A DNA stretch of 64,000 bases from Nguyenibacter vanlangensis. Its GTDB lineage: Bacteria > Pseudomonadota > Alphaproteobacteria > Acetobacterales > Acetobacteraceae. The DNA lies in the NCBI RefSeq assembly GCF_038719015.1, contig NZ_CP152276.1, forward strand, positions 4,605,501-4,669,500. The letters run 5' to 3'. Both the position numbers and the translations under genes were made by a program. Numbering within the stretch: position 1 is the first letter of the stretch; the number at the start of each line of letters is the position of its first letter. Positions 3,200 to 52,221 of this stretch are shown here, piece by piece. Below the pieces are notes generated by a model. That model ran no database searches. It was not told the DNA's origin and saw only the letters and a list, made by a program, of their open reading frames with translations.

Positions 3200-3324
3200 G
3201 CCGGCTCTTCCAGTTCGGTCTGCCTTATATCATGCGCCGGGCCATGGTGAAGGCCATGGCGTCGTTTTCGCGGCGAATGAGGGGGGATTCGGCGCGGGAC
3301 GGGGCATTTCGGATTGGAGGCGGA

Positions 3325-3807
3325 TCAGAAATCGAGCGCGGGTTCGTGCCGGTCGATCACCTCCTTGAGGCAGATGAAGGTGCGCGTACGGTTGATGCCG
3401 GGCAGCGAGACGAGATAGTCGCTGTGGATCGCATTGAAGCGGTAGATGTCGGCGACGCGGATCTTGAGGAAATAATCGTATTCGCCCGAGACCAGGTAGC
3501 AGTCGATCACGATGTCCAGCGCGCGGACCGCGCTTTCGAAGGCGAGGATGTTCGCCTTGTCCAGCGAGTCGAGATTGACGCCCACCAGGACCAGCGCACC
3601 GCGCCCGACCTTGGCGGAATCGAGGATCGCGCTGAAGCGCAGGATGACGCCGCGCTCGACCAGGCGTTGCACCCGGCGAAAACATGTCGCCGCACTTTGA
3701 TTGACCAGCGGGGCGAGGTCCGAGATCGGCAGGCGCCCGTTCGCTGCCAGGTGGTTCAGGATTGCACGGTCGGTCCGGTCGAGGTCGGACCTGGCAGCAT
3801 CTTCCAT
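3325..3807 (-). CDS. Lrp/AsnC-family transcriptional regulator
   Basis: A 160-aa Lrp/AsnC protein: an N-terminal winged HTH (LDRTDRAILNHLAANGRLPISDLAPLV, then recognition helix SAATCFRRVQRL), a linker, and a C-terminal RAM-type domain (ALVLVGVNLDS..., YDYFLKIRVADIYRFNAI). I chose the ATG at 3807 because a GGGAG lies 5 bp upstream; a TTG at 3828 is an alternative. In copy 2 of the local repeat this regulator is divergent from a TonB receptor, so it originally faced that receptor across the shared promoter region. It probably senses an amino acid and controls the receptor; this is inference from position. A truncated second copy lies at about 11914-12229. Confidence 0.9.
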   Translation of the reverse strand: MEDAARSDLDRTDRAILNHLAANGRLPISDLAPLVNQSAATCFRRVQRLVERGVILRFSAILDSAKVGRGALVLVGVNLDSLDKANILAFESAVRALDIVIDCYLVSGEYDYFLKIRVADIYRFNAIHSDYLVSLPGINRTRTFICLKEVIDRHEPALDF

Positions 3808-3975
3808 CATGTCTCCCGATGACGTCAAAATCCTTCAGCGAGACGAAATGTAGTGAATGATTTCGTCATTTCTGTGTCGGAATATGAATGCACAATTCGT
3901 ATCGCTTTCGACAATATCGCACCACACGAAATCGTGAGCAAGGAGCGACCCGTGAGCGCGCGAAGAAAATTTCTG
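3492..3975. repeat. Direct repeat copy 1 (about 484 bp)
   Basis: This copy matches 11914-12397 base for base at a constant offset of 8422 bp, with no indels and roughly a dozen mismatches. It spans the 5' two-thirds of the Lrp gene, the divergent promoter region and the first eight codons of the TonB-receptor gene. Similarity stops abruptly after TTTCTG at 3975. Confidence 0.95.
3856..3870. promoter_or_regulatory. Candidate Lrp operator, copy 1
   Basis: Interrupted palindrome AATGA-TTTCG-TCATT in the region between the Lrp gene and the receptor start. It is kept, with one change in the spacer, in copy 2 at 12278-12292. Its size and A/T-rich arms are compatible with Lrp-type sites; binding is inferred. 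Confidence 0.45.
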
Positions 3976-4020
3976 AGAGGCCGTCCGAGATCAGAGTTTT
4001 CACGCTTCACCACGTCATAG
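3952..4020 (+). pseudogene. 5' stub of the TonB-receptor gene
   Basis: GTG start with the SD AAGGAG six bases upstream, identical to the start of the complete receptor at 12374. The first eight codons (MSARRKFL) are intact. The sequence then changes to unrelated DNA and the frame stops at 4018-4020. It marks the left junction of the inserted block. Confidence 0.85.
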
Positions 4021-4377
4021 CCGTAGCACAGGCCGCGGTGCGGCTTGCGAGGCCTTTGAGGAACAGGGCATGCGGTCCAGCGCCCGCAAGCTGATCCAGC
4101 AGATCATAGGCCGAAGGCGCTGGGGCGTCCGCAGGACGCCGATCGTACTGATACCGTTGCCGTAGACTTGGGTAAGCACGGCGATTCGAAACATGCGCGA
4201 ACGCAGCCTGTCTGCAATCATTGATCCGGTTTCGGGTCAAATGCCCTGTGACGCGCATGCGTCGGCCGCGGAAGTTGAGTCCGTTCAAACGAGATCGTTT
4301 AAACGGGCGAGGATTGCTCCACACGGCCGACCTGACAGCACCGTTTCGGCCGGTCCTGTCCCCGGCCGGCTTGGCCG
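3976..4377. other. 402-bp stretch without a supportable gene
   Basis: This stretch lies between the left repeat junction and the M13 peptidase stop codon. Short open frames exist on both strands but none resembles a known protein or has a convincing start. It contains a 28-bp palindromic repeat at 4280-4307. It could be the remains of the vehicle that delivered the block. Confidence 0.5.
4280..4307. repeat. 28-bp palindromic repeat, copy A
   Basis: Arms TCCGTTCAAACG and CGTTTAAACGGG (10 of 12 pairs) around AGAT. The same architecture recurs at 19773-19800. It lies 70 bp downstream of the M13 peptidase stop, where it could act as a transcript-end hairpin. No T-run follows. Confidence 0.7.
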
Positions 4378-6489
4378 TCACCAGATCTTCACGCGGTCTT
4401 CCGGCTTCAGATAAAGCTTCTGTCCCGCCACGACGCCCCATGCGTCATACCATGCATCGATATTATGCATCGGCATGTTGACGCGCGCGACCGGCGGCGA
4501 ATGCGGATCGACCACGATTTGCTGGCGCAGGGCGTCGTCCCGCACTTTCTCGCGCCACACCTGCGCCCAGCCCAGGAACACGCGCTGGTCGCCCGTCAGT
4601 CCGTCGATCACCGGTGCCGGCTTGCCGTGTAGCGAGGCATGATAGGCATCCAGCGCCAGCGTCAGCCCGCCCAGATCGGCGATATTCTCGCCCATTGTCA
4701 GCTTTCCGTTCACATGCACGCCCGGCAGAACCACGAATGCGTCGAACTGCGCACCTAGCCGGTCGGCAAGTTTCTGGAACCGCGCCGCGTCCGCCTTGGT
4801 CCACCAGTCGCGCAGCCGCCCATGCTCGTCGAACTTGCGCCCCTCGTCGTCGAAGGAATGGGTCATCTCATGCCCGATCACGCCGCCGATGGCGCCGTAA
4901 TTGACGGCCGGATCGGCCTTAGGGTTGAAGAAGGGCGGCTGAAGGATCGCGGCTGGGAACACGACCTCGTCGAACACGGGCATATTGTAGGCATTTACAA
5001 TTTGCGGCGTCATGTCCCACTCGTCGCGATCGACCGGCTTGCCCAGATGCTCCAGCCAGTATCGCCATTCAAAGGCAATCGCGCGCGTGGCATTGCCATA
5101 CACGTCGCCCTTGCGGATTGTCAGCGCGTCATAATCACGCCACCTGGTGGGATAGCCGATCTGGATGGTAAAATTCTCCAGCTTGCGCAACGCAGCGGCA
5201 CGCGTCGCCGGCTCCATCCAGCTATTATGCTGAAGACGGACACGAAAGGCGGTCTTCAACTCATCCGTCAGATGACCCATCTGCACCTTGTTGTCCGGTG
5301 GGAAATAGCGCGAGACATAAACCCGGCCGATCGCCCATCCCATCGCGGAACTCGTCGCGCCCACCGCCCGCTTCCAGCGCACGGGCAGTTGCGGCTGGCC
5401 GGATAGCGTCTTGTCGTTGAACGCGAACCATGCGTCGACGAACGATTTCGACAGGTTGGGCGCCGCATTGTCCGCCAGATGGAAGGCCAACCACGCGCGT
5501 AGCGTCGCGATATCCGTCGCACCGAGGATTTTCGCCTCCCCGGTGATCGCACTGGGCTCGCCGGCGATCACGATACGCTGAGTGAGACCCGCCGTCGGAA
5601 TGCCCGCCGCCTGCAGCCAGATCGCCCAGTCGAAACCGGGCGCGTCCTTCCCGAGTTGTTCGACGGTGCGGGGATTGTAGCTCTTTTCGGGATCGCGCAT
5701 CGCTTCGCGCGCCCAGTGAGCCTTTGCGATGACCGTTTCCAGCGCGACGATGTCCGATGCCGCCTGCTTCGCGTCCGGCCACCCGATCAGGCCGAGCATT
5801 GTCTCGACATAGGCCCGATACGCGGTCTTCTTCGCGGCGAAGGACGGTTTGATGTAATAATCCCGATCCGGCATCCCCAGACCTGCTTGGTCCAGGTTGA
5901 GCGAATACCGCGTGGGGTCCTTCGCATCGGGCTGGATCATGAGCGAGAACGGCGATGCCTGAAACGTTTCCTGGGCCGACCCGGCGAGGGCAGCGAAGGA
6001 CGCGGCATCATGCACGGCACGGATCGCGGCCAGGTCGGCCGCCAATGGCGCCGCACCCGATGCCTCGACGGCCGCCTCGTCCATGAATGAGGCATAGAAC
6101 GTCCCGAGCTTGCCTTCGATCGTCGTCGGATTTGCCTGCGCCTGCGACGACACGTCGTTCAGGATCGCCTGCACCCGCGTACGCGACAGTTCGGCGAGTT
6201 CGTTGAACGGCCCCCAGCTCGCCCGGTCCGGCGGAATGACCAGGTGCTCGACATAAGTACCATTGGCATAGCCGAAGAAATCATTGCCTGGCTGCACCGA
6301 AAGGTTGCGCCCGGACAGGTCGAGCCCCCAGGTTCCCAGGTGCGCAGCCGACGCGCCCGGCGTCGCTGGAACCGCCACAGTGGCGGCCGTCGCACCTCCG
6401 GTGGCCAGCATCCCGGCCAGGCAGGCCGTGCCCAGCATCGCAATTCCACCACGGCGCTCTGCGATGCCGTATTGCTTCATGAGGATCAA
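4378..6489 (-). CDS. M13-family zinc metallopeptidase (PepO/neprilysin-like), secreted
   Basis: A ~703-aa M13 endopeptidase. The zinc site VIGHEMTHSFDDEGRKFD (HExxH near residue 540) is followed about 60 residues later by ENIADLGG, which supplies the third ligand Glu and the Asp of the ExxxD motif. The N-terminal M13 domain begins GLDLSGRNLSVQPGNDFFGYANGTY. A hydrophobic signal segment (MLGTACLAGMLATGG) predicts export. AGGAGG lies 8 bp before an in-frame TTG (6489) but 17 bp before the ATG at 6480, so TTG may be the real start. The gene follows the STN TonB receptor by ~80 bp on the same strand, suggesting that it cleaves extracellular or periplasmic peptides handled by that receptor (inference). 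Confidence 0.93.
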   Translation of the reverse strand: MILMKQYGIAERRGGIAMLGTACLAGMLATGGATAATVAVPATPGASAAHLGTWGLDLSGRNLSVQPGNDFFGYANGTYVEHLVIPPDRASWGPFNELAELSRTRVQAILNDVSSQAQANPTTIEGKLGTFYASFMDEAAVEASGAAPLAADLAAIRAVHDAASFAALAGSAQETFQASPFSLMIQPDAKDPTRYSLNLDQAGLGMPDRDYYIKPSFAAKKTAYRAYVETMLGLIGWPDAKQAASDIVALETVIAKAHWAREAMRDPEKSYNPRTVEQLGKDAPGFDWAIWLQAAGIPTAGLTQRIVIAGEPSAITGEAKILGATDIATLRAWLAFHLADNAAPNLSKSFVDAWFAFNDKTLSGQPQLPVRWKRAVGATSSAMGWAIGRVYVSRYFPPDNKVQMGHLTDELKTAFRVRLQHNSWMEPATRAAALRKLENFTIQIGYPTRWRDYDALTIRKGDVYGNATRAIAFEWRYWLEHLGKPVDRDEWDMTPQIVNAYNMPVFDEVVFPAAILQPPFFNPKADPAVNYGAIGGVIGHEMTHSFDDEGRKFDEHGRLRDWWTKADAARFQKLADRLGAQFDAFVVLPGVHVNGKLTMGENIADLGGLTLALDAYHASLHGKPAPVIDGLTGDQRVFLGWAQVWREKVRDDALRQQIVVDPHSPPVARVNMPMHNIDAWYDAWGVVAGQKLYLKPEDRVKIW

Positions 6490-6568
6490 ATCGATTTCCT
6501 CCTGGCGCACCGCGGCGCGCCGAATTGTATGGGATGGTCGTTCCGGCGCGGGACGCGCATGCCCGCGC

Positions 6569-9500
6569 TTAGAAATTCGCCTGGACCGTCAGCATGAACG
6601 AGCGTCCGATGATGCCGTCGAAATAGCGCGAGGTCGAGCCGATATAGGGATATTGCGGTTTCGCATCGAACACGTTGTTAATATTCAGGTTCGCCATATA
6701 ATGCTTGAGAAAAGTATAGCCGATGGTTGTGTTGAACATGAAATATTGCTTGAAGTCGTTGATGGAATAGGTGTTCGGGGCGACGTTCAGCTTGTAACGG
6801 CTCTTGCCGTAGTAGATCATTTGCCACTGCAGCATGAGTGGACCGCGGAAATAATTGATATTGGTCGTGAAATTGTCGCGCGGGTTGCTGGTGTCGCCGA
6901 CCTGCGCATAAGTCTGGCTGAGCAGCGTCTGGTTGTTGAAGACGTAATGCATGTAATTGACGGTCATCTCGACCGCGCCGGATTTCGGACCCAGCCCGAT
7001 ATCCTCGAGCGTCAGGAAGTAATCCAGCTTGGACTGCACGCCGCGCACGTGCTGGTTTGCGATATTGTAATATCCCTCGTGGAAATTGGTGATCTGGCCG
7101 GATGAATCCCGCGTGAAGGCCGAGCAGTAGGCATTCGGAAAGTTCGGCGAATCGTAGCACGCGTCCATGATCTGGGTGATGTCGAGCGACTGGATCTCAT
7201 TGTGCAGATTGATGTCGATGAAATCGGAATTGATGGTCAGCCCACGCACCCAGCGCGGACGCAGGGTGACGCCGCCGGTAAAGCTGTCCGCCGTTTCGTT
7301 CTGGAGATGGGGGTTTCCGCCCGAACTGCCGAGTATGGTATAATTATTGATATTCGACGTGAAGTTGGTCGGCACGCCCGCCTTGGCGCAATTCGCGCGC
7401 CGGACGCCCGGATTCGGGCCGGACGTGATGAACTGGGGCGAACACGGATCGTTCCCGCTGTCGTAGACCGAACCATCGGGTGCAAACAGTTCCGTGATCG
7501 ACGGCGCGCGGAGCGAGCGGGTATAATTGCCGTGGAACAGGACGTCGCGCGTCGGCGCATAGGTGCCTCCGGCGGTCCAGGTCCAGAAGCCTCCGGTTAT
7601 GGAGTTGTTGACATAGCGTGCCGCCGCGTCGCCCGAGAATTCATAGACGCCGGGGATATGCATCTTCGGCGAAACCAGCGGAACCTCGAGTTCGGCGAAG
7701 GCCTCGTGCGTATGATAGCTGCCCGCGACAGGCGAGACCGGAATAAACGCGCCATATTGCTGATAGGTGCCATCCGGCATGGGCTCCCCGAGGAAGAAGG
7801 CCCCCGGATTGAAGCTCGTAGCCTCGCGCCTGTGCTCGTAGCCCAGGTCCCAGCGCACATCCCCCGCCGGCAGCTTGACGACGGTGCTTTTCACCTCGGC
7901 CACGATGTCGAACTGGCTGTTCGTCTGCGAGGTCTTGCTCATGGCGGTAACATAGTCGATCGCCGACTGGCTTGCGGTGCTCACGCCGAACGGATTGAGC
8001 GCCGCGCAGGTCGCACTCTCGGTGGGCAGCGGCGAGCTGACATAGCCCGGTGCGCAGCCGATCGACCCGTCAGGCAGCCTCACGGCATTCAGCGCGTTGA
8101 CGAAGTTCTGCGCCACGATCATGGGCTGATAGGTCTGCGACATCGAGCGCCCGTACGTACCGGTGATATCCCAGTCGAAATGACGGCCGGCGAACTCGAA
8201 ATCCCCGTTCAGACCGCCGACGAAACGGAACGTCTGCGTGTTCGTGGTGAAAGCGCCGGTCCCGTAATCGGTGTTGGCGCGGGCCAGATAGAATTGGTCG
8301 GTCGGTACCCCCTGCGCGGCAAGGTTCGAGATGATGGTGGCGCGTTCCGCTTGCGTCAAGAATGGATTGCTGGTGCTCAACACCAGGTTGCCGCTCTGCG
8401 TCCCGTCGGCGGCGCCCGTCATCGCGCTGCCGAACAGGGCGGAATTGTAGTTCGGTTGGGCGGACGTATTGAAGGCGCTTGCATCCTGGTACCAGCCTTC
8501 GAACTTCGCCTTCAAGTGATCGGTGATGTCGTAATGGGCCAGCGTGGTCAGGTTCAGCCGCGTCTGGCCGACGATCAGATTATTGTAGTTGCCGATATTG
8601 AAGCCATTCCCGCCGGAGCCTGAAATCTGGTCGCCGTTGACCGAATTGAAGGTCAGCGGCACCAGGGCGGTGCCCGTGGGGTTGAATATCAGCGTCTGTC
8701 CCGCGGCGTTCGTCACCCCCCCCAGGTTCTGGCCCGAGAGCGTGGGGTAGGTATCGGAGGTGATGGGAATGCCCGAATTGGTGAATTCCAGATAACGCTG
8801 CCCGTGTTGCAGCACGTATTGGTACGGGCTGTTCGGATCGTTGCTTTGCCCGAAATAATTGCTGTTTCCGCCGCCGAATTGCGGCCGCGCCGCGCGGGTC
8901 AGCGGAAGCTGGTCGTTATATTCGAGATCGAAGACGACGCCGCCCCGGCCATGATCGAAATGCCGACCAGCCAGAAACGCGATCTTGGCCGATCCGTCAT
9001 CGAGCTTCTGGGAAAAACCGCCCTGTGCGGTAAACTCCACGCCCTGGAAATCATTCTTGAGGATGAAGTTCTGCACGCCGGCGATCGCGTCCGACCCGTA
9101 GGCGGGCGCGCCGCCGACGCTCACGGTCTCGACTTTCTTGATGAGCGAGGAGGGGATGATGGACAGATCGACCGGCGACCCCGCGACCGCGCCGAAGATC
9201 GAGGAAGACGCGTCCGAGACGAAGCGCATGCCGTTCACCAGCGTCAGCGTGCGCTGCGAGCCGAGGTTGAACATGTTGGCGAAGAACTGGCCGGCACCAT
9301 AACTGCCTTGGGTCCCCATATTGGAATTGTCCGGCGCTCCATAGGCCGGGTTTTCACGCAACAACGCGGTGCCGACATTGGTATAACCACGCCGTGCCAG
9401 TTGCTCGGCATCCAGCGTTGTGGTCGGCATGATGTCGGTCAGCGCGGAATGGGCGAGGCGCGACCCGGTGACGACGATGGCTTCGGCGTTGGATGTCGCG

Positions 9501-9931
9501 TCAGTACGATCCGGAGCGGCGAGGGCGGTTGCATTCGTTGCCTTGATGGCGTCCGCGCGCGGCATGGGGGTGGAGGCCGGCGCGGGCGGTAAGGTCGTGA
9601 CGATCTTCAACCCGCCGGATGGCGTCGCGACCACGGCCAATGCGGTGCCGCGCAAGGCGAGGCCGACCGCTGTCATCTCGGTCATCTGGCCGTCGATCGC
9701 AATCGCCTGCCTGCCTGCCACCTGATCGGGAGAAAACGCGATGGGAGTTCCGGTCTGGGCCGATATGCGCAACAAGGTTCGTGCCAACGGCCCCGGCGGC
9801 AGGGAGAAGGCGAAGGATTTCGCCTGACTGACGGAGATATCGGCGGCTCGGCCTGATGAGACCCCTGCGAGACATGAGCCCGTGAGCAGAAAAAAGGTGG
9901 ATATGCCGAATAGCCGCTGGTTTCTCTTCAT
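6569..9931 (-). CDS. TonB-dependent receptor with N-terminal STN signalling domain
   Basis: A 1120-aa outer-membrane receptor. Signal peptide at residues 1-30; STN (secretin/TonB N-terminal) domain at about 40-112 (FSLPPGPLARTLLRISAQTG ... VGLALRGTALAV); TonB box EAIVVTG at ~150-156; then plug and a very large beta-barrel ending in aromatic ...FMLTVQANF. An STN domain means the receptor reports ligand binding to the anti-sigma partner FecR, which is encoded just upstream with its ECF sigma factor. The ATG at 9931 (MKRNQRLFG) is preceded by AGGAAG; the longer open frame has no signal peptide at its start. Barrel length and the adjacent M13 peptidase suggest a peptide rather than a simple siderophore ligand, but this is not shown. 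Confidence 0.93.
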   Translation of the reverse strand: MKRNQRLFGISTFFLLTGSCLAGVSSGRAADISVSQAKSFAFSLPPGPLARTLLRISAQTGTPIAFSPDQVAGRQAIAIDGQMTEMTAVGLALRGTALAVVATPSGGLKIVTTLPPAPASTPMPRADAIKATNATALAAPDRTDATSNAEAIVVTGSRLAHSALTDIMPTTTLDAEQLARRGYTNVGTALLRENPAYGAPDNSNMGTQGSYGAGQFFANMFNLGSQRTLTLVNGMRFVSDASSSIFGAVAGSPVDLSIIPSSLIKKVETVSVGGAPAYGSDAIAGVQNFILKNDFQGVEFTAQGGFSQKLDDGSAKIAFLAGRHFDHGRGGVVFDLEYNDQLPLTRAARPQFGGGNSNYFGQSNDPNSPYQYVLQHGQRYLEFTNSGIPITSDTYPTLSGQNLGGVTNAAGQTLIFNPTGTALVPLTFNSVNGDQISGSGGNGFNIGNYNNLIVGQTRLNLTTLAHYDITDHLKAKFEGWYQDASAFNTSAQPNYNSALFGSAMTGAADGTQSGNLVLSTSNPFLTQAERATIISNLAAQGVPTDQFYLARANTDYGTGAFTTNTQTFRFVGGLNGDFEFAGRHFDWDITGTYGRSMSQTYQPMIVAQNFVNALNAVRLPDGSIGCAPGYVSSPLPTESATCAALNPFGVSTASQSAIDYVTAMSKTSQTNSQFDIVAEVKSTVVKLPAGDVRWDLGYEHRREATSFNPGAFFLGEPMPDGTYQQYGAFIPVSPVAGSYHTHEAFAELEVPLVSPKMHIPGVYEFSGDAAARYVNNSITGGFWTWTAGGTYAPTRDVLFHGNYTRSLRAPSITELFAPDGSVYDSGNDPCSPQFITSGPNPGVRRANCAKAGVPTNFTSNINNYTILGSSGGNPHLQNETADSFTGGVTLRPRWVRGLTINSDFIDINLHNEIQSLDITQIMDACYDSPNFPNAYCSAFTRDSSGQITNFHEGYYNIANQHVRGVQSKLDYFLTLEDIGLGPKSGAVEMTVNYMHYVFNNQTLLSQTYAQVGDTSNPRDNFTTNINYFRGPLMLQWQMIYYGKSRYKLNVAPNTYSINDFKQYFMFNTTIGYTFLKHYMANLNINNVFDAKPQYPYIGSTSRYFDGIIGRSFMLTVQANF

Positions 9932-10031
9932 CTCTTCCTCATCGTTACGGACCGTTACGGTGTGGCCGTCACAAAGGATGAGGATCGAGCCGGCCAAAGT
10001 GATACCGACTGAGAAACTTTTTTTACGTCAC

Positions 10032-10062
10032 GATCGTCACGATAAAGAATTGATCGTCACGA
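10032..10062. promoter_or_regulatory. GATCGTCACGA direct repeats before the STN receptor
   Basis: GATCGTCACGA occurs at 10032-10042 and 10052-10062, exactly 20 bp apart, with a further partial copy at 10026. They overlap the fecR stop codon and lie ~100-130 bp upstream of the receptor start. Two turns of spacing fits a regulator site; the factor is unknown. Confidence 0.4.
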
Positions 10063-10903
10063 CTCCGAAAGGTAGATGCCGGATGGAGACCGGGAAGATC
10101 TCCTCGAGTTGCGTGAGCGAACGGCGGGTATCGTTCAGCGAAAATACGCCGCTCGCCCGGATGCGCGCCGCGCGCGGCGTGATGTACAGCGCACCTCGCC
10201 AGTAGGGTGCCAACCCTGCGACCACATCGCCAAGCGTCCCGTTTTCCACGATCAGCATCCCATTGCGCCAAGAGGTCGCAAGGCCCCAGTCGATGGCCTG
10301 TTCGCCCGGTCCATTCGGCTCCAGATCGATGGCATGGCCAGCCGCCAGGGTCAGGCGCGGCCCATGCGCGGGCAGAATGGTCAGCATGTCGTCATGGGCG
10401 GTCACGATCGTCCGGCCGTCATCGCGACGGACCATGAAATCGCCGGCCAACGCACGGACCGTGCCCGCGCGGGTGGCAACTTGGATAAACGGCGATGCCG
10501 CGTCGGGGCGGCTTTCGACAAGAACCGTTCCACGCAGGAGCGTGAACGCGTTCCGCCCGCCGCCGGCGGCGAATGCGATGGCGCTGCACGGCGCAAGCGT
10601 TGCGGTGGATCGTGCTCCAAGGGCGAGTTGCTGCGTCTCGCCATGGCGGGTGCGGATATCGGCGCGCGGATCGCCCGACAGATGCCCCGGCCCGACCACC
10701 ACGTCCGCCACGCATGCTGCGCCGGCGAGCGCTCCCAGCCCCCGGCGCAGCAGCGCGCGGCGTTTCACCCGGCGTAGGTAAACGTCGCCTAGAGACTGGC
10801 CACCCAGCGCCGCGCTCAGCCGCGCAAGCTGCATGTCCACGGAGTTGGACCGCTCGTTTCCGCCCTGCAGCGCGTCCGTGGATCGTGTTGGATCGGAAGC
10901 CAT
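10037..10903 (-). CDS. FecR-family anti-sigma regulator
   Basis: A 288-aa FecR homologue. It has a short cytoplasmic N-terminus, a membrane segment (LLRRGLGALAGAACVADVVV, about 52-72) and a periplasmic FecR domain (TRHGETQQLALGARSTATLAP..., TLLRGTVLVES, VRALAGDFMVRRDDG). A C-terminal WRNGMLIVENGTLGDVVAGL segment is typical of the receptor-interacting end. It would hold the ECF sigma factor and pass the signal from the STN domain of the receptor encoded downstream. It starts 33 bp after the sigma gene on the same strand. The N-terminal cytoplasmic domain lacks the usual DUF4880 WxxWL signature. Confidence 0.9.
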   Translation of the reverse strand: MASDPTRSTDALQGGNERSNSVDMQLARLSAALGGQSLGDVYLRRVKRRALLRRGLGALAGAACVADVVVGPGHLSGDPRADIRTRHGETQQLALGARSTATLAPCSAIAFAAGGGRNAFTLLRGTVLVESRPDAASPFIQVATRAGTVRALAGDFMVRRDDGRTIVTAHDDMLTILPAHGPRLTLAAGHAIDLEPNGPGEQAIDWGLATSWRNGMLIVENGTLGDVVAGLAPYWRGALYITPRAARIRASGVFSLNDTRRSLTQLEEIFPVSIRHLPFGVVTINSLS

Positions 10904-10936
10904 GATGCTTTCTATTACGAACAGGAATTCAGGAAC

Positions 10937-11458
10937 TCAAGGCCGATCCAGCACGCCCACACAGGCACGTTCGGCGGTATCGATATATTTCCGTACCATG
11001 CTGACTGATACGTTGAGGCGTTCGGCGATGTCCTGATGGCGCAGATGGTCGATTCGGTAGAAGAAGAACGCCGCGCGTGCCTTGGGGGACACGCCGCGCA
11101 GCGCATGGTCCATGCGCTGGAGCAATTGCAGGAACTCATTATGTTCCTCGGGGCTCGGCGCTGTCTCCGCCGAAACGGTCCGCAGCGCGTCCAGATAGCT
11201 TGCCTCCAGCACGCTGCGTCTTCTCAACTCGGAGATCAAGCGCCGCGCCACGACCAGCAGAAAAGCACGCGGCTCGCGCAAGCTTTCCGCCTGCCGGGAT
11301 GCGGCAAGGCGGACAAACGCCTCGGAGGCGATTTCCTCCCCCTTGCTACGGGAACCGAGCTGACGCGCCACACGCCCGGCCAGCCAGCCGAAATGCGACT
11401 GGAACAGTCCTGCCAGCGGGTCTGCATGCCGTGAATGCGTCAGGGGGTGTTTGGTCAT
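10937..11458 (-). CDS. FecI-like ECF sigma factor
   Basis: A 173-aa ECF sigma factor. Region 2 (ADPLAGLFQSHFGWLAGRVARQLG..., EEIASEAFVRLAAS, ..REPRAFLLVVARRLISELRRR) resembles FecI (P-x-x-Y/F-L). Region 4 carries an HTH (HLRHQDIAERLNVSVSMVRKYIDTAERAC). I chose the ATG at 11458 (MTKHPLTHS), because the longer frame to 11536 adds sequence unlike sigma factors. First gene of the sigma-FecR-receptor-M13 block, so it likely directs transcription of the receptor and peptidase when ligand binds. Confidence 0.92.
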   Translation of the reverse strand: MTKHPLTHSRHADPLAGLFQSHFGWLAGRVARQLGSRSKGEEIASEAFVRLAASRQAESLREPRAFLLVVARRLISELRRRSVLEASYLDALRTVSAETAPSPEEHNEFLQLLQRMDHALRGVSPKARAAFFFYRIDHLRHQDIAERLNVSVSMVRKYIDTAERACVGVLDRP

Positions 11459-11913
11459 CTCTGGTTTCACACGGCCCAACCGAACGCGACGGGCACCGGA
11501 TCGTATCGCATCCCGCACGCATAAATACAAAAACAAATCGTATAATTATTGAATTTGTCCGATATATAAACTTTTTCCAAGGGTAATTTTTCTCACACGT
11601 TCTTGATATCGACTTCGTAACGTCTTCACGTGATTTCCAGCGCCGCGCCGTGTGTCCCCCGTTCAGGAAACGCTGTACGACGCTCTCTCCTGACAATCAT
11701 AACGAAGCCGCAATAGGCAAGAGGCACGTCCGCTCGACCAACCGCTTTTTTTTGGAATGTGTCCCGGCGAACACCCGGTGTGGCCGGGCATGAAAAGGCG
11801 GTCCTGTCCACTGTCCCTTTGATTCCAAAATTCGCCTATGGCGAGCGGCCCGTTATCACTGGCCGGGGTGATGTCACCGGCTCCGGTCTCATACGCCTTA
11901 CCATTCCGCAGCC
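11459..11913. other. 455-bp stretch upstream of the sigma gene, no supportable gene
   Basis: The part next to the sigma gene (about 11520-11620) is AT-rich and should hold its promoter. From about 11640 to 11913 there is only short open sequence, including the nonsense extension of the truncated Lrp frame. I see no recognisable transposase or recombinase. Confidence 0.5.
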
Positions 11914-12229
11914 CCAAGTAATAGTCGATCAGGATGTCCAGCGCGCGGACCGCGCTTTCGAAGGCTAGGATGTTCGCCTTGTCCAGCGAGTCGAGATTGA
12001 CGCCCACCAGGACCAGCGCGCCGCGCCCGACCTTGGCGGAATCGAGGATCGCGCTGAAGCGCAGGATGACGCCGCGTTCGACCAGGCGTTGCACCCGACG
12101 AAAACATGTCGCCGCACTTTGATTGACCAGCGGGGCGAGGTCCGAGATCGGCAGGCGTCCGTTCGCTGCCAGGTGGTTCAGGATTGCACGGTCGGTCCGG
12201 TCGAGGTCGGACCTGGCAGCATCTTCCAT
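11914..12229 (-). pseudogene. Truncated Lrp/AsnC regulator (second copy)
   Basis: The first ~105 residues are nearly identical to the complete regulator at 3325-3807: the whole HTH and the first half of the RAM domain up to ...LDILIDYYL. It then runs into unrelated sequence. The RAM ligand-binding/oligomerisation core is lost, so it is probably non-functional. If expressed, the remaining HTH could still bind DNA, possibly as a competitor of the intact copy. Confidence 0.88.
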
Positions 12230-12277
12230 CATGTCTCCCGATGACGTCAAAATCCTTCAGCGAGACGAAATGTAGTG

Positions 12278-12292
12278 AATGATTCCGTCATT
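12278..12292. promoter_or_regulatory. Candidate Lrp operator, copy 2
   Basis: AATGA-TTCCG-TCATT palindrome about 80-95 bp upstream of the receptor GTG. Arms are identical to copy 1 (3856-3870). Confidence 0.45.
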
Positions 12293-12373
12293 TCTATGTC
12301 GGAATATGAATGCACAATTCGTATCGATTTCGACAATATCGCACCACACGAATTCGTGAGCAAGGAGCGACCC

Positions 12374-14689
12374 GTGAGCGCGCGAAGAAAATTTCTGTAC
12401 GCCTTCGTTTCATCTTTGGCGGTGCTGGCTGCATTGCCTGCAGCCCATGGCGCTCCGGTGTCGGTGCGCAAACCGAAGGGCAAGGTGGCGGCATCCCATG
12501 CGCCGAAACCGCGCGTCCATGCCGTCGTCGCCGCGTCGGAATCGCTGGCCGTGACCGCGAACCGCAATACGTCCCATGGGATGGAGCAGACGATCACGCG
12601 CAAGGCGCTGGAGACCTTCGTGCCGGGAACCAGCGTGTTGCAGGTGCTCTCGGCCACGACGCCGGGGGTGAGCTTTGCCTCGGACGACCCGTTCGGCCTG
12701 GATACCTGGGCGAACACATTCTATATCCGGGGCTATACGCAGAGCCAGCTTGGCATCACGCTCGACGGGATCCCGCTGGGGGACGGGCAGTTCATCAATG
12801 CCAGCGGCCTGGACATCAACCAGGCGGTGATCCAGGACAATATCGGCCATGTGAACATGTCGCAGGGGGGCGGGGCGCTGGATGTCATGTCCATCACCAA
12901 CCTGGGCGGCGCGCTGCAATATTATACGCTGGACCCGCGCGACAGGATGGGCGGCGACGTGTCCCAGACCTTCGGCAGCAATGGGACCTATCGCACCTTC
13001 GCCCGGTTCGAGAGCGGGGTGCTGAACCGCACCGGCACGAAGTTTTCCGCCGCTTATGCCCGAACCGACGCGGGCAAGTGGAAGGGCGCGGGCGATCAGT
13101 TCGAGCAGCAGGCGAATTTCAAGGTCGTCCAGCCGCTGGGCACGCGGGGGAAGGTCAGCGGCTATTTCAACTATTCGGAGTTCGATCAATATAACTATAG
13201 CGACCTGAGCCTGGAGATCATCCACAAGCTGGGCCAGCGGGTCGATTACTACTATCCCGACTATGCCACGGCCTATAAGGCGGCGCTGGGGCAGTTTCCG
13301 GCCGGCTATGACAGGTTGTCGGACCCGGAGGATGCGTCCTATTACGACGGGGCGCAGCTTCAGCGGAATTACCTGACCGGCATTACGACGCAATATGACC
13401 TGACCGACCGGCTGCATTTCACCAACGTGCTGTACGACCACCAGTCCGGCGGGGATTACGAATGGACGAATCCCTATGTCACGTCGCCGTCGGGCGCGCC
13501 GATGATCCAGCAGGTGGGCCATACCGCGGTCACACGCCTGGGGGCGACGGCTGCCCTGCAATACGAAATCGGCAATCACACGCTGCATAGCGGGGTCTGG
13601 TACGAGCATGTGGGCTATAGCTGGGCGCAGCGTTACTACAGCCAGCCCGTGCTGGGCCAGGGCGCGCCGCGCAGCGGAACGGGGCCCTATGACGATCCGT
13701 TCGCCACGGCCTATGCGATGCAGTTCAACACGAACACGTTCCAATATTATCTGGAAGACAGCTATCGCATCCTGCAGAACCTGCGCGCGCATGCGGGCTT
13801 CAAGTCGATGCTGACGACCACGGCGGGGGGCGCGTCCTACAACAATCCGACCTATACCGGCCAGGACACGCTGCCCAATGGCAGCCTGACGACGGCCGGC
13901 GCCTTCCTGCCGCATGTCAGCCTGAACTGGACGTTCCTGGGTAGAAACGAGCTGTTCTTCGATTTCGCGAAGAACCTGCGGGCCTATACGTACAATACGT
14001 GGCAGAGCGGCAATGCCTGGGGCGTCAACGAGATGCCGACGAACCTGAAGCCGGAGACGTCCTATAACTACGAGGTGGGATATCGCTATAACGCGAAGCG
14101 GCTGACGGTTCTGGTCAATCTCTATCACATCGACTATCGCAACCGCTTGGCCACGATCACGGTCGGCAGCCTGGTGAACGCGCACAATACCTATATCAAC
14201 GTGGGCAACATGGATATGTGGGGCGCGGATGCGGGCGTGACCGTGCGGCCGCTGCCCGGCCTGGAGGTCTTCAACAGCTTCAGCTACAACAAATCGACCT
14301 ATGGCCGCGACGTGACGAGCGACGGCGTGACCTATCCGGTCGCGGGCAAGCTGGAGGCGGGCTATCCGCAATGGATGTACAAGGCGAACGCGAGCTATGC
14401 GTTCGGGGATGCCCGGCTGAACTTCAACGTCAACTACATGAGCAAGCGCTATATCTCGTATGTCAACGACGCGGCGGTGAGCGGCTACTGGCTGGCGACG
14501 CTGTCGGCGAATTATCGCTTCCGGCATATTCCGCATCTTGAGACGCTTGAATTCAACCTGGGTGTCTACAACCTGTTCAATCAGCAATATGTCGGCGGCA
14601 TCGGCGGCTATTCCATGTCGGGCGACACGCAGCAGCTCTTCGCGGGAGCGCCGCGCCAGATCTTCGGCTCGCTGCACGCACGGTTCTGA
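12374..14689 (+). CDS. TonB-dependent outer-membrane receptor (no STN domain)
   Basis: A 771-aa receptor. The GTG start at 12374 has AAGGAG six bases upstream and gives a clean signal peptide (MSARRKFLYAFVSSLAVLAALPAAHGA); the longer frame to 12275 crosses the promoter region. Plug domain at about residues 60-190 (VLQVLSATTPGVSF..., FYIRGYTQSQLGITLDGIPL), then a ~570-residue beta-barrel ending ...PRQIFGSLHARF. With no STN domain it should not signal through FecR. Its divergent regulator was an Lrp protein, so uptake of an amino-acid-related or peptide-like ligand is possible (inference). Its 5' end is duplicated at 3952. Confidence 0.92.
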   Translation: MSARRKFLYAFVSSLAVLAALPAAHGAPVSVRKPKGKVAASHAPKPRVHAVVAASESLAVTANRNTSHGMEQTITRKALETFVPGTSVLQVLSATTPGVSFASDDPFGLDTWANTFYIRGYTQSQLGITLDGIPLGDGQFINASGLDINQAVIQDNIGHVNMSQGGGALDVMSITNLGGALQYYTLDPRDRMGGDVSQTFGSNGTYRTFARFESGVLNRTGTKFSAAYARTDAGKWKGAGDQFEQQANFKVVQPLGTRGKVSGYFNYSEFDQYNYSDLSLEIIHKLGQRVDYYYPDYATAYKAALGQFPAGYDRLSDPEDASYYDGAQLQRNYLTGITTQYDLTDRLHFTNVLYDHQSGGDYEWTNPYVTSPSGAPMIQQVGHTAVTRLGATAALQYEIGNHTLHSGVWYEHVGYSWAQRYYSQPVLGQGAPRSGTGPYDDPFATAYAMQFNTNTFQYYLEDSYRILQNLRAHAGFKSMLTTTAGGASYNNPTYTGQDTLPNGSLTTAGAFLPHVSLNWTFLGRNELFFDFAKNLRAYTYNTWQSGNAWGVNEMPTNLKPETSYNYEVGYRYNAKRLTVLVNLYHIDYRNRLATITVGSLVNAHNTYINVGNMDMWGADAGVTVRPLPGLEVFNSFSYNKSTYGRDVTSDGVTYPVAGKLEAGYPQWMYKANASYAFGDARLNFNVNYMSKRYISYVNDAAVSGYWLATLSANYRFRHIPHLETLEFNLGVYNLFNQQYVGGIGGYSMSGDTQQLFAGAPRQIFGSLHARF

Positions 14690-14709
14690 CCCGGTCCTGA
14701 CGCGCCGTC

Positions 14710-14744
14710 GCATGGGCGGACCCGGTTGTCCGGGCCGCCCATGC
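14710..14744 (+). terminator. Hairpin after the TonB-receptor gene
   Basis: GCATGGGCGG-A-CCCGG, loop TTGT, CCGGG-CCGCCCATGC: a 15-pair stem with one bulged A, starting 20 bp after the stop codon. No T-run follows, so it may be a processing or Rho-assisted end. Confidence 0.55.
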
Positions 14745-14862
14745 GGGCCATGTCGCGGGGGAGAGCATGTCGTGAAAGCCCGTGGAACGCGCTGGGCCGC
14801 TGATAAAGCCTCGACGTTTTTCGCATCCTGGGCAGGTGAGTGTTCTGGGATCCCTGGTAGGC

Positions 14863-15189
14863 TTATACGGTTGAGGAGAGTTCAGCGCCCAGCCAATTCA
14901 GATAGTCCTTGATTGCAGCTTCGTCCCGTTTGCAATACGACCATTTCAGGTGCTTCCGCACGGTGATGAAGCCGGCTTGTTTGAGAATTTCCAGATGGCG
15001 GCTAGCCGTAGGCTGTGCCACCGATAGTGCCTCAGCGATCAATGTCATGCAGACGCCGAACTCGACCGGATCGGCCGACCATTGGTGGCCGAAGTGCTTT
15101 TGCGGTTTCGCCAGCAATCGAAGGACCGTCAGGCGTTGCTCGCTCGCCATCGCTTTGATTTGGTTTGATCTATCCATAGCTGTTATCAT
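14863..15189 (-). CDS. ArsR-family HTH regulator
   Basis: A 104-108-aa winged-helix protein: IKAMASEQRLTVLRLLAKP, then CMTLIAEALSVAQPTASRHLEILKQAGFITVRKHLKWSYCKRDE, the ArsR HTH and wing. The canonical metal-site ELCVCDL is absent, so it is probably not a metal sensor. It is divergent from an alpha/beta hydrolase gene only 37 bp away, with a near-perfect 32-bp palindrome between the two starts. It therefore most likely represses both genes and is relieved by the hydrolase substrate or product (inference). ATG at 15189 or 15177; neither has a clear SD. Confidence 0.88.
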   Translation of the reverse strand: MITAMDRSNQIKAMASEQRLTVLRLLAKPQKHFGHQWSADPVEFGVCMTLIAEALSVAQPTASRHLEILKQAGFITVRKHLKWSYCKRDEAAIKDYLNWLGAELSSTV

Positions 15190-15217
15190 ATTGTCATTTA
15201 GCTAAATTGCAATATGA
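15186..15217. promoter_or_regulatory. ArsR-type operator palindrome
   Basis: Centre ATTTAGCTAAAT (perfect 12-bp palindrome, 15196-15207) flanked by TCATATTG and CAATATGA. 28 of 32 positions are symmetric. It overlaps the regulator start and lies 10 bp before the hydrolase start. Confidence 0.75.
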
Positions 15218-15226
15218 GTAGCTGTC

Positions 15227-16045
15227 ATGCTGGACCTGCCCAATACGACGATCATAGAAGGAAATGCCGTCCGGTGGGGCAAGGCCGGCAACGGGCCACC
15301 GCTGGTGGCGCTTCATGGGACACCCTTTTCCTCGCAGGTCTGGCGTAGAATCGTGCCGCAACTCGCCGATCGCAGGACCATCTACTATTTCGATCTGGTC
15401 GGCTACGGACTGTCGGAGATGCGTGAGGGTCAAGACGTCTCTCTGGCTGTGCAGAACAAGACCCTCGCCGCTCTGTTCGCGGAGTGGGGCCTCGAACGTC
15501 CCGATATGTTGGCACATGACTTCGGCGGGGCCACGGCGCTACGCGCCTATTACATGAACGGCTTACGTTATAGTTCCTTGACGATCTTCGACGCTGTTGC
15601 CCTCGCCCCCTGGGGGTCCGCTTTGGTTCAGCATGTGCGTCAGCATGAGGCCGCCTTCTCCGGAATGCCAGACTACATGCACCGGGCGCTATTGCGCGCC
15701 TACTTGCAGACTGCGGCTTATAATCCGCTGTCCGAAAAAGCATTGGAAATCTATAGTACGCCGTGGCTCGGGCCAGTAGGCCAGCCTGCGTTCTATCGCC
15801 AGATAGCGCAGATGGATCAGAAATTTACCGATGAGGTTGAAGGACGATACGGGCGGATGGACTGTCCCGTAACAGTCCTCTGGGGGCGAAACGACGAATG
15901 GATACCCTTTGAAAAGGGCGTGGCGCTGGCTGCATTGATCTCCGACGTTGATTGCATCGCGGTGGACGATTCCGGGCACCTCGTTCAGGAAGACCGGCCC
16001 GAAATCATCGTGGCGGCCGTCCTGAAACGGCTCAACCAGGCGTAA
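15227..16045 (+). CDS. Alpha/beta hydrolase with Asp nucleophile (dehalogenase/epoxide-hydrolase-like)
   Basis: A 272-aa alpha/beta hydrolase. Oxyanion motif HGTPFSSQVW resembles the HGNPTSSYLW of haloalkane dehalogenases. The nucleophile elbow is AHDFGG, with Asp instead of Ser, as in dehalogenases, fluoroacetate dehalogenase and epoxide hydrolases. The acid is in LWGRNDEWIP and the base in DDSGHLVQEDRPE. The family hydrolyses C-halogen or epoxide bonds through an aspartyl ester; the substrate here is unknown. Base composition is slightly lower in GC than the neighbours. Divergent from and probably controlled by the ArsR gene. Confidence 0.85.
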   Translation: MLDLPNTTIIEGNAVRWGKAGNGPPLVALHGTPFSSQVWRRIVPQLADRRTIYYFDLVGYGLSEMREGQDVSLAVQNKTLAALFAEWGLERPDMLAHDFGGATALRAYYMNGLRYSSLTIFDAVALAPWGSALVQHVRQHEAAFSGMPDYMHRALLRAYLQTAAYNPLSEKALEIYSTPWLGPVGQPAFYRQIAQMDQKFTDEVEGRYGRMDCPVTVLWGRNDEWIPFEKGVALAALISDVDCIAVDDSGHLVQEDRPEIIVAAVLKRLNQA

Positions 16046-16229
16046 TGGCGATACGCAAGACATGCCTGCACCAGGCGGGCTGGAATTCGTGAACCGCCCC
16101 GGGGAAAATCATCATCCAACTGGCGAAGGCCGGGGCGGACAACCGGCCGTGCGGCGCGGCGTTCACCGTCGCGGTGGGCGGCATCGCGCGGCGGGTGCGG
16201 CCGAACGCGTTCTTTTGATGCGTGTTTTT

Positions 16230-16259
16230 GCCCGATCGGATGATTTCATCCGGTCGGGC
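16230..16259. terminator. Strong hairpin in the hydrolase-xylB gap
   Basis: GCCCGATCGGATGA, TT, TCATCCGGTCGGGC: a 14-bp stem with a single G-T pair. It is preceded, not followed, by a T-run (16225-16229), so polarity as an intrinsic terminator is unclear. It lies 80 bp before the xylB start. The rest of the 296-bp gap shows no supportable gene. Confidence 0.5.
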
Positions 16260-16341
16260 GATGCCGGGATGCCGCATTGCCTGAGTCGGGGCCCGAGTCG
16301 GGCGCGGACATTCCGCCGGGGCGTGTTGCAGGGAACGGGTG

Positions 16342-17814
16342 ATGTATATCGGCATCGATGCGGGTACGTCGGGGATCAAGGCGGTTCTGGTGGACGAGGC
16401 GCAGGCCGTCCTGGCGAAGCGGACCGTCGGGCTGAGCAGCCGGTCCCCGCATCCCGGCTGGAGCGAGCAGGACCCCGCGGATTGGTGGGGGGCGCTGCTC
16501 GACGCGGTGGACGGATTGCGGGCCGAGCAGCCGGCGGCGGTCGCCGCGGTGCGGGGGATCGGCCTGTCGGGGCAGCAGCATGGCGCCGTGCTGCTGGACG
16601 CGGCGGGGCAGGTGCTGCGGCCGTGCATCCTGTGGAACGATGTGCGCTCCAGCGCGGAATGCGAGGTGTTCGAGCAGCGTTTTCCCGACAGCCGGAGCGT
16701 GTGCGGCAATATCGCCATGCCGGGATTCACGGCGCCGAAGCTGATATGGGTGGCGCGGCACGAGCCGGAGATCTTCGACGCCGTCCGGCATGTCCTGCTG
16801 CCGAAGGCGTGGCTGCGCTATCGCCTGAGCGGCGAGATGATCGAGGACATGTCCGACGCGTCCGGCACGTTGTGGCAGGATGTCGGGCGCCGCCGCTGGT
16901 CGGACGATGCGCTGGCGGCGACCGGCCTGACGCGGGCCGCGATGCCGGCCCTGTGCGAGGGCACGGCGCAGGCCGGGCGGCTGACGCGCGCGCTGGCCGC
17001 GCGGTGGGGGATGGCGGTGCCGCCGATCCTGGCCGGAGGAGCCGGCGACAATGCGGCCGGCGCGGTCGGGCTGGGGGCGGTGCGGGAGGGCGATGCCTTC
17101 GTCTCGCTGGGGACGTCGGGGGTGGTGTGGGCCACGACCGAGCGTTTTCGCCCCCGGCCGGAATCGGCCATCCATGCCTTCTGCCATGCGGTGCCGGAGA
17201 TGTGGCACCAGATGGGGGTGACCCTGTCCGCCGCGTCCTGCCTGGCCTGGTGGGCGGAGGTGGCCGGACGGGACGAGGCGGCGCTGCTGGCCGAATTACC
17301 GGAGCGGGTCACCGCGCCGTCGGGTGTGCTGTTCCTGCCCTATCTGTCCGGGGAGCGGACGCCCCATAACGACGCCGCGATCCGGGGCGCGTTCGTCGGG
17401 CTGGATCGGGCGAGCACACGGGCGGACATGACCCAGGCCGTGCTGGAAGGCGTGGCCTTTTCGTTTCGCGACGCGCTGGACGGGCTGGCATCGGCGGGAT
17501 CGGTCCTGCGCCAGGCCGACGTGATCGGCGGCGGGGCGCGCAGCGCGGCCTGGGTGTCGATCCTGGCGTCGGTCATGGATATTCCGCTGCATCGGCTGGC
17601 GCACGGAGAGCAGGGCGGCGCGTTCGGCGCGGCGCGGCTGGCCCGGCTGGCCGCGACGGGAGAGCGCATCGCGGACATCTGCCTGCCGCCCGAGCGGATC
17701 GCGACCGTGGCGCCCGACGCGGCCCTGAGGGAGGCGTACGGGCCGGTGCTGGCGCGCTATCGGGCCCTGTATCCGGCCTTGTCCGGCCTGTCGCCGCGGC
17801 GCGGCGCCGCCTGA
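16342..17814 (+). CDS. xylB: Xylulokinase
   Basis: A 490-aa FGGY-family kinase that phosphorylates D-xylulose to xylulose 5-phosphate for the pentose phosphate pathway. It shows N-terminal phosphate motif YIGIDAGTSGIKAVLVDE, GLSGQQHGAVLLD, LWNDVRSSAE, the C-terminal adenosine motif GGGARSAAWVSILASVMDIPLH, and LPYLSGERTPHND characteristic of xylulokinases. ATG at 16342 follows an overlapping GTG; GGGAA lies upstream. It stands alone with no xylose isomerase or transporter nearby, and meets the MFS gene tail to tail. Confidence 0.93.
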   Translation: MYIGIDAGTSGIKAVLVDEAQAVLAKRTVGLSSRSPHPGWSEQDPADWWGALLDAVDGLRAEQPAAVAAVRGIGLSGQQHGAVLLDAAGQVLRPCILWNDVRSSAECEVFEQRFPDSRSVCGNIAMPGFTAPKLIWVARHEPEIFDAVRHVLLPKAWLRYRLSGEMIEDMSDASGTLWQDVGRRRWSDDALAATGLTRAAMPALCEGTAQAGRLTRALAARWGMAVPPILAGGAGDNAAGAVGLGAVREGDAFVSLGTSGVVWATTERFRPRPESAIHAFCHAVPEMWHQMGVTLSAASCLAWWAEVAGRDEAALLAELPERVTAPSGVLFLPYLSGERTPHNDAAIRGAFVGLDRASTRADMTQAVLEGVAFSFRDALDGLASAGSVLRQADVIGGGARSAAWVSILASVMDIPLHRLAHGEQGGAFGAARLARLAATGERIADICLPPERIATVAPDAALREAYGPVLARYRALYPALSGLSPRRGAA

Positions 17815-17855
17815 GGACGCCCCCAACGCAAGAGGCTTGGGCGGGGTGCGCGGAT

Positions 17856-19049
17856 TTATGCGGCCGTTTCCGCGGGGGCCGGGCCGTCGTTCGGGCGATT
17901 CAACGCGCGCAGGGTCATGCCCGTCAGCCCGATCAGCAGCACCACGTAGAGATCGGTGGTGGCCGTGAGGCCAAGGCCGCGCACCGCGAACCCGGCGGCG
18001 AAGGCCGGCACGCAGAAGGCGAGGTAGCTGAGCACGAAATAGCTGGCCATCAGGCCGGCGCGTTCGTGGACATGGGCGAGCGGGACCAGCGCGCGGAGCG
18101 ACCCCTGGACGATCAGGCCGAGCCCGGCGCCGGCGATCGCGGCCCCCGGCAGGAAGAGCGCGAGGTGCCGGGCATGAAGCCCGAGCAGGATGACGGGCAG
18201 GCCGAGCAGAACGAGGGGCGCGCCGCGCCGGAGCAGCATCATCGCGTCACCCTTGCGGTGCAGCAGCATCGCCGCGAGCGCCGCGCTCATGACCGAGGCG
18301 ATTTCCCAGCCGCCCAGCAGCGGGTCGGTCGATCCGCCGGCGGCCAGCCGCGCGACGGCGGGGCCGAGCGACAGGAACAGCCCGGCGAGCGCCCAGACCG
18401 CGATATTGGCGGGCGCGACCCGGAGCAGGGCCGCGCGGGCCCGGTGGGGCACATGCACGCGGGGCCTGAGGGAGGCGAGCGCGCCCGGCTTCGGCGAGAC
18501 CGTTTCGGGCAGGGCGAGGATCGCGGGAACGGCCAGTACCAGGGCGGCGAGGACCAGCACGAAGACCAGATGCAGCGGCTGGGGCGCGAAGCGTGCCAGC
18601 ACGGCCGAGAACAGCGCGAAGCCCGCCATCGAGCCCATCGGCACCATGCCGCTGATCAGCCCGCCGCGCGCGCGTTCGGCGTCCTGAAGGCCCGCGCTGA
18701 GCACGCTGGTGGCGATGCCGGTGGCCAGCCCCTGCAGGGCGCGGCCCCGGATGACGTCGCCGATCCCCGCGGCGGTGGCGAATTGCAGCATGGCCAGTGC
18801 CTCGATCGCGATCGCCATGAGCGCGACGCGGCGGCGGCCGATATGGTCGGACAGCGCGCCGAAGCAGAGCAGCGCGCCCAGCAGGGTCAGGGCGTAGATC
18901 GCGAAGGCGGCCTGGAGCATCGGCACCGGGACGTGCCATTGCGCCTGATAGAGCGGAAAGAGCGGGGTCAGCGCGGCCGAGGCGCCGAGAAAGACGAACA
19001 GGACCGCGCCATAGGTCCAGAGGAGGCGTCGTGCAGGTAGCTTCGTCAT
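17856..19049 (-). CDS. MFS transporter (drug-efflux type)
   Basis: A 397-aa major facilitator with about 12 hydrophobic segments. The loop 2-3 motif GALSDHIGRRRVALM (motif A) and the motif-C-like GLATGIATSVLSAGLQD in helix 5 point to the drug:H+ antiporter group. The substrate cannot be read from sequence. It is divergent from a TetR gene 94 bp away with a palindromic operator between them, the usual arrangement of an exporter and its repressor. Confidence 0.88.
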   Translation of the reverse strand: MTKLPARRLLWTYGAVLFVFLGASAALTPLFPLYQAQWHVPVPMLQAAFAIYALTLLGALLCFGALSDHIGRRRVALMAIAIEALAMLQFATAAGIGDVIRGRALQGLATGIATSVLSAGLQDAERARGGLISGMVPMGSMAGFALFSAVLARFAPQPLHLVFVLVLAALVLAVPAILALPETVSPKPGALASLRPRVHVPHRARAALLRVAPANIAVWALAGLFLSLGPAVARLAAGGSTDPLLGGWEIASVMSAALAAMLLHRKGDAMMLLRRGAPLVLLGLPVILLGLHARHLALFLPGAAIAGAGLGLIVQGSLRALVPLAHVHERAGLMASYFVLSYLAFCVPAFAAGFAVRGLGLTATTDLYVVLLIGLTGMTLRALNRPNDGPAPAETAA

Positions 19050-19110
19050 GGACGGGTTCCCCCGTTAAAGCATAGGATGTGCGTTAGTCCATATTGGAGT
19101 ATGCCGCATA

Positions 19111-19129
19111 AAAGCAATATATTTGCTTT
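19111..19129. promoter_or_regulatory. Candidate TetR operator
   Basis: Perfect interrupted palindrome AAAGCAA-TATAT-TTGCTTT between the divergent MFS and TetR starts. A related half site TAAAGCA lies at 19065-19071. Spacing suits repression of both genes. Confidence 0.7.
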
Positions 19130-19143
19130 AGAGGGTACGCATC

Positions 19144-19770: not shown

Positions 19771-19772
19771 AT

Positions 19773-52131: not shown

Positions 52132-52221
<90 letters not shown>

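Follow-up and report, generated by a model that had tools for sequence, protein, structure and literature searches.

We analyzed a 64-kb window of the genome of Nguyenibacter vanlangensis (G000, a one-contig genome, C1:4605501-4669500). Between bamD and lpxC, this window contains a gene for an Lrp-type regulator (lrp) and a divergently oriented gene for a TonB-dependent receptor, which are separated by a block of four genes encoding an M13 family metallopeptidase, a second TonB-dependent receptor, a FecR-type protein and a FecI-type sigma factor. A long direct repeat, in the following called X, lies on both sides of this block (Table 1). Our comparisons support the view that the block is a foreign insertion between the once-adjacent lrp and receptor genes.

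In a self-comparison of the window, positions 3492-3975 match positions 11914-12397 over 484 bp at a constant offset of 8422, with 13 mismatches, no indels and a longest exact run of 126 bp. Identity outside the repeat falls to 15-45% in 20-bp bins, and 2000 random 484-bp pairs taken at random offsets had a mean identity of 28% and a maximum of 40%. X tops the direct repeats listed for the window, the next family being 58 nt long. Only six of the nine bases from 3492 to 3500 match, and the three mismatches among them (3495, 3499 and 3500) distinguish the left from the right copy in this genome as well as in the second genome of the species, N. vanlangensis LMG 31431 (G040; a draft of 1310 contigs, 87% complete). 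We therefore set the core of X to 475 bp with 10 mismatches (3501-3975 and 11923-12397), the true left junction probably being 3500/3501.

X starts within lrp, spans the divergent promoter region and reaches receptor codon 41, counted from a mechanically assigned GTG start. The lrp gene is whole via the left copy and the receptor gene via the right copy, while the right-hand Lrp is truncated after about 109-112 codons. Both the repeat and these reciprocal truncations are directly visible, and the original prediction for this locus had described them correctly: a 484-bp match with about a dozen mismatches, and a full Lrp next to a cut receptor on the left, mirrored on the right, as borne out by the Pfam and NCBIfam profiles against which the gene content was checked. 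The truncated lrp gene (lrp′) is part of an open frame of 195 amino acids (11663-12250) that has kept the helix-turn-helix (HTH) domain and lost most of the ligand domain; if expressed, its product could compete with Lrp.

Table 1 Features of the lrp-receptor locus and its borders (window coordinates).
Feature	Position	Strand	Remarks
bamD	2252-3199		left border gene of the larger insertion
bamD-lpxC insertion, containing the X-flanked block	3298..21668		18.4 kb, species-specific among the genomes compared
lrp, complete Lrp/AsnC regulator, 167 aa	3325..3828	-	Pfam HTH_24, AsnC_trans_reg
Left core X	3501..3975		5′ part of lrp, divergent promoter region, first 41 receptor codons (dead copy)
Left junction spacer	3976..4280	-	relic of a large serine recombinase gene at 4003-4071
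Palindromic repeat at the 3′ end of the M13 gene	4281..4319		also in Gluconacetobacter aggeris (G. aggeris); G. aggeris homology begins here
M13 family metallopeptidase, PepO-like	4378..6438	-	PF05649/PF01431; start codon assumed
Block TonB-dependent receptor, probably STN-type	6569..9928	-	plug and barrel domains; start codon assumed
FecR-type protein	10037..10903	-	PF04773; PRK09774-like below cut-off
FecI-type ECF (extracytoplasmic function) sigma factor	10937..11461	-	Sigma70 r2/r4; sigma70-ECF above cut-off, FecI models below theirs; start codon assumed
fecI upstream region	11462..11796		common to G. sacchari site A; donor-side homology ends
Probable relic of a small open reading frame (ORF)	11842..11889	-	precedes a serine recombinase gene in G006; 77% over 48 bp
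Right core X	11923..12397		truncated lrp′ (HTH part), divergent promoter, receptor start
Complete lrp-paired TonB-dependent receptor	12275..14689	+	plug and barrel domains
lpxC	21669-22688		right border gene of the larger insertion

All four block genes are open in the window. As in FecI-FecR-TonB cell-surface signalling systems, the sigma factor, FecR and TonB receptor genes are co-directional, and the FecR and sigma-70 domains are present. Unlike in such systems, an M13 peptidase gene adjoins, and the STN domain of the block receptor is detected weakly (13.4 bits against a cut-off of 28.4). The content claimed earlier, an M13 peptidase plus FecI, FecR and an STN receptor, thus holds for the genes and less firmly for the STN domain, and the circle said to have carried them was not found.

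The same genes, FecI, FecR, TonB receptor and M13, are found in unchanged order at a conserved locus, here called site A, in three of the 12 other species of the genus. These are G. aggeris (G005), G. sacchari (G007), in which the receptor is split into two frames, and G. takamatsuzukensis (G001), and none of them has X repeats around the block. Homology to site A is limited by position 4281 on the left (G005) and 11796 on the right (G007). In two further species (G006 and G011) M13 is the sole block gene kept at this site, and two others (G003 and G008) have no block at site A, G008 carrying ~780 bp in place of 8 kb, despite BamD identities to G. aggeris of 96.9% and 98.5%, respectively. Site A of N. 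vanlangensis G000 is directly seen to be empty, its flanks lying about 160-220 bp apart versus 18.3 kb in G. aggeris. The site (G000:C1:200070-200288) adjoins a sufS-like gene and differs from species to species in the genus: both the M13/FecIR block and an N-acetylglucosamine-type gene set (labels assigned by eye) can be there in one species and missing from a close one.

Nucleotide identity to G. aggeris amounts to 91.6% over the block, compared with 81.4% for recN-bamD, 79.9% for lpxC and 81.7% for the genes beyond lpxC; for single genes it is 91.9% (M13), 92.7% (block receptor) and 85.0% (BamD). In the M13 tree, both N. vanlangensis strains group with G. aggeris and G. sacchari (100/100), and in the BamD tree they fall outside a seven-species group containing these two (100/100), a conflict that rests on this one core gene. 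Because the block is closer to G. aggeris than the core genes are and the two trees conflict, its horizontal transfer into N. vanlangensis is well supported, with the direction resting on the tree nesting. The comparison further supports a probable source at site A in some relative of G. aggeris that is not among the genomes compared. Nonsynonymous divergence from G. aggeris (dN) is lower than synonymous divergence (dS) in all four block genes (dN/dS pairs: M13 0.040/0.249, receptor 0.023/0.273, FecR 0.062/0.202, FecI 0.041/0.458), suggesting that they were under constraint for most of the time since that divergence. Between the two N. vanlangensis strains, the synonymous and nonsynonymous changes are small in number (M13 6/4, receptor 17/13, FecR 0/2, FecI 2/0).

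Apparent relics of a single serine-recombinase gene cluster lie at both ends of the block, the left one being strong and the right one weaker. The left relic (4003-4071) derives from a large serine recombinase gene, of which it keeps a piece that is split over two frames and has an internal deletion; it is 97% identical over 34 bp and has the stretches ALFLK and GLCYGYDVVKR as in PF00239/PF07508 recombinases; a Pfam search with the open frame over it returned no families. The right relic (11842-11889) matches a small ORF just upstream of a serine recombinase gene at 77% over 48 bp (L201) and at 75% (L200), with an E-value of 3e-5 within the set of recombinase neighbourhoods, but of 0.004 against all loci compared. 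The left relic is matched by all 12 of these neighbourhoods, which were chosen by the left relic itself and drawn from 11 of 12 recombinase loci, and the right relic by two of them. None of 300 random 231-bp pieces of the window reached the score of either relic. The two relics agree in strand and order. The block therefore seems to have taken the place of ~0.54 kb within a single recombinase cluster, either on arrival or earlier. The left spacer is unmatched among the site A loci compared, and hence no recombinase relic was detected there. No intact recombinase gene was found in the element, only the left fragment and, probably, the right one. Given these apparent relics flanking the block, the earlier statement that no integrase or insertion sequence (IS) is needed is not supported. 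The large serine recombinase family has 1-11 matches per genome, fragments included, in all 14 genomes of the genus. Several of its genes lie ~130-180 bp from contig ends (G005:C12, G008:C51, G001:C16, G011:C14, G040:C35 and G003:C28), which suggests that they sit beside sequence repeated in those genomes.

In all 12 other species, bamD is followed by lpxC, with a gap of about 20-320 bp in 11 of them. The remaining gap, in G008, is ~1.8 kb long and homologous to a major facilitator superfamily (MFS)/TetR gene pair of the window (17901-19748). As bamD and lpxC adjoin in all of these species, we read lrp, the block, the receptor and everything up to 21668 as an insertion that appears in this species only. 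The second strain, LMG 31431, has the block and both repeats, and its junctions are directly seen to be identical to those of G000; we take the insertion to predate the separation of the two strains. It shares the bamD-lpxC insertion up to 14755 and then diverges, because of which the bamD-lpxC site is called variable between strains; to the right of 14755 it has LysR- and MFS-like sequence (labels assigned by eye). An empty single-copy lrp-receptor site between bamD and lpxC was found in none of the genomes compared, the 12 other species being without the whole region and LMG 31431 with the insert.

At another locus, an lrp-receptor pair is directly adjacent in two species (G004 and G012; 66% protein identity for Lrp), the receptor being interrupted near its 3′ end in G004 and broken into three pieces in G012. 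G005 and G002 also have adjacent pairs, which are more distant (51-54% and 61-62%). The best match to the lrp/X region outside the species was 75% over 155 bp among 40 genomes and 69% over 374 bp in a larger set of 397 genomes with two candidates scored per genome; matches outside the species reaching 80-97% were short (up to 74 bp).

A tRNA, RNA or inverted-repeat target was considered and rejected: the single tRNA gene in the window is a tRNA-Ser at 52132, no Rfam match reached the gathering threshold in 3000-22000, and no inverted repeats of at least 40 bp were found in the window. A palindromic repeat of ~65 bp (19765-19829), which resembles repetitive extragenic palindromic (REP) sequences, recurs at least 20 times in each N. 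vanlangensis genome at 77-93% identity; the palindrome at the M13 3′ end, shared with G. aggeris, is related to it.

To date the X copies, we compared them four-way (left and right in both strains) and polarised the differences with an outgroup, G004, that is only ~70% identical. Among the 10 mismatches of the core, two (3676 and 3863) are left/right-fixed in both strains, and six are private to one G000 copy (3598, 3905 and 3931 to the left, 3510, 3736 and 3874 to the right). Of the others, 3655 is swapped between the copies of the two strains, and 3544 is not judgeable because it is deleted in the right copy of LMG 31431. Five of the six private mismatches are derived in the copy bearing them, 3736 being ambiguous. 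At two further positions, 3763 and 3841, both G000 copies differ from both LMG 31431 copies. The dead left receptor start differs from the live one by four nonsynonymous and no synonymous changes and has a 2-bp deletion in LMG 31431, where the dead right lrp′ has lost 75 bp; the live lrp shows five synonymous and no nonsynonymous changes between the strains. Most X mismatches thus look like decay after the duplication rather than donor divergence, and the comparison supports that the dead gene ends appear to decay while lrp and the receptor gene stay intact. The divergence had been ascribed to a related donor or to later drift; drift is favoured, as five of the 10 core mismatches are derived in one G000 copy, and the related donor is not. 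Such a donor predicts copies that differ by the donor-recipient divergence, whereas two of the 10 mismatches are left/right-fixed and one is undeterminable, a count that gene conversion may have lowered; this prediction belongs to that version of the event and not to every Campbell integration.

We tentatively favour that a foreign chromosomal fragment was inserted in the lrp-receptor pair and left 475 bp of target on both sides. A linear fragment, already embedded in recombinase-cluster debris, would have entered the cell. One of its ends would have been joined to a chromosome with a break in the receptor gene, the other to a sister chromosome with a break in lrp, 475 bp away; alternatively, the fragment could have been joined to the filled-in ends of a single staggered break. 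The X copies would then have started out identical. Because this outcome keeps both genes and their shared promoter whole, it could have been selected for, and occasional gene conversion between the copies as well as RecA-dependent loss of the block would be expected consequences. Several points weigh against this scenario. It needs two illegitimate joints, the joining step itself is inferred and not observed, and no empty lrp-receptor site exists at the locus among the genomes compared. The right relic is short and its support amounts to a single relative, because the two recombinases behind its matches are 95% identical to each other. In addition, positions 3763 and 3841 together with the swapped 3655 suggest gene conversion, or a chimeric draft assembly of LMG 31431; since conversion may have wiped out earlier differences that stemmed from the donor, it is not proved that the copies began as identical.

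A Campbell integration, as proposed in the original prediction, is possible, and we rate insertion with target duplication slightly above it; both routes, as well as the tandem duplication considered below, yield the same product. Here, a circle carrying the block and a ~475-bp internal lrp-receptor fragment would have integrated by a single crossover through that fragment. The geometry is exactly that of one crossover, with direct target copies, one full gene on each side and reciprocal truncations, as in Campbell integrants. The backbone of the vehicle could survive in the recombinase-cluster relics at the two block ends, and 3763 and 3841 suggest exchange between the copies. However, such a circle needs an X near that of the recipient, yet no long match above 75% was found outside the species, while the block comes from another lineage; a circle bearing both would need extra steps, and for this reason we rank target duplication first. 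The circle itself also requires two earlier illegitimate joints, and most mismatches look like later mutations, again with the caveat of conversion. Unlike the Campbell expectation, there are few left/right differences shared by the strains although the block is from another lineage. A plasmid or circular form of the block in related species, which was to be looked for, did not turn up beyond partial, distant matches in 72,556 plasmid records, although absence from one collection is no proof. The block hit 21 records (best coverage 12%), the left spacer one (E-value 0.1) and the right spacer none; 29 records matched the lrp/X region partially, at 60-90% identity within lrp genes, and 159 matched FecR, all below 60%. 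Neither these records nor the genomes compared contained the block joined to X, be it in a circle, a plasmid or a donor. Of the single-crossover origin, the insertion and its geometry thus stand, and the circular donor behind it stays hypothetical; the Campbell label is possible but not established. The search for an empty site in sister strains led to LMG 31431, the sole other genome of the species, which has the insert. The block without the repeats, named beforehand as an observation against this origin if made in sister genomes, comes close to what is seen at site A in G. aggeris, G. sacchari and G. takamatsuzukensis, which are other species.

Tandem duplications are frequent in bacteria, and if the lrp-receptor region had first been doubled and the foreign block had then taken the place of what lay between the copies, an identical geometry would result. 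We consider this route unlikely, as it requires two events and no trace of a longer duplication is seen outside the repeat. About equally unlikely is the idea that the block was cargo of a serine-recombinase-bearing vehicle, built into the recombinase gene of that vehicle, and now, flanked by 475-bp repeats that still exchange sequence, constitutes a reversible module. If this were true, the species could alternate between carrying a sensing-and-peptidase module and being without it, with lrp and the receptor kept in either state. A move within the genome from an old resident site A copy is not preferred, the block being 91.6% identical to G. aggeris versus 80-82% for the neighbouring core genes. 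Finally, large serine recombinase relics at the ends and the presence of the family in all 14 genomes of the genus would fit a dedicated mobile element with the 475-bp repeats as attachment sites, but this is highly improbable, because serine integrase attachment sites share a very short core, the recombinase gene is a fragment in two frames that is interrupted by the block rather than lying beside it, and the block occurs at site A without such a relic among the loci compared.

Insertions accompanied by a long target duplication have been described before; they are reported from Helicobacter pylori by Nobusato et al. 2000, often with restriction-modification genes (as cited in PMC1643837, PMC3154945 and PMC4978471). 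As in these cases, an accessory gene block is flanked by a long direct target repeat. Unlike in these cases, the cargo here consists of peptidase and TonB/FecIR genes, recombinase relics lie inside the repeats, and there is no empty-site sister at the locus. The microcin H47 genomic island of Escherichia coli is likewise reported to lie between direct repeats and to have no recombinase of its own (PMC5426353). Its repeats are described as short, and its excision was detected experimentally and was independent of the recombination functions tested (PMC5426353), whereas the repeat described here is 475 bp long.

The event is of a known type, and we regard this locus as a clear example rather than a new one. 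This one case brings together the source locus, the same locus in its empty state, the insertion site and the decay of both copies at strain level. It also illustrates that a diverged donor is not the necessary explanation when flanking repeats differ; most of the mismatches found here seem to have arisen later, several of them in dead gene ends. The locus also provides a case of long target duplication that can be tested in an acetic acid bacterium, a plant-associated one that appears to have gained an 8-kb gene set from a relative while losing neither of the neighbouring genes.

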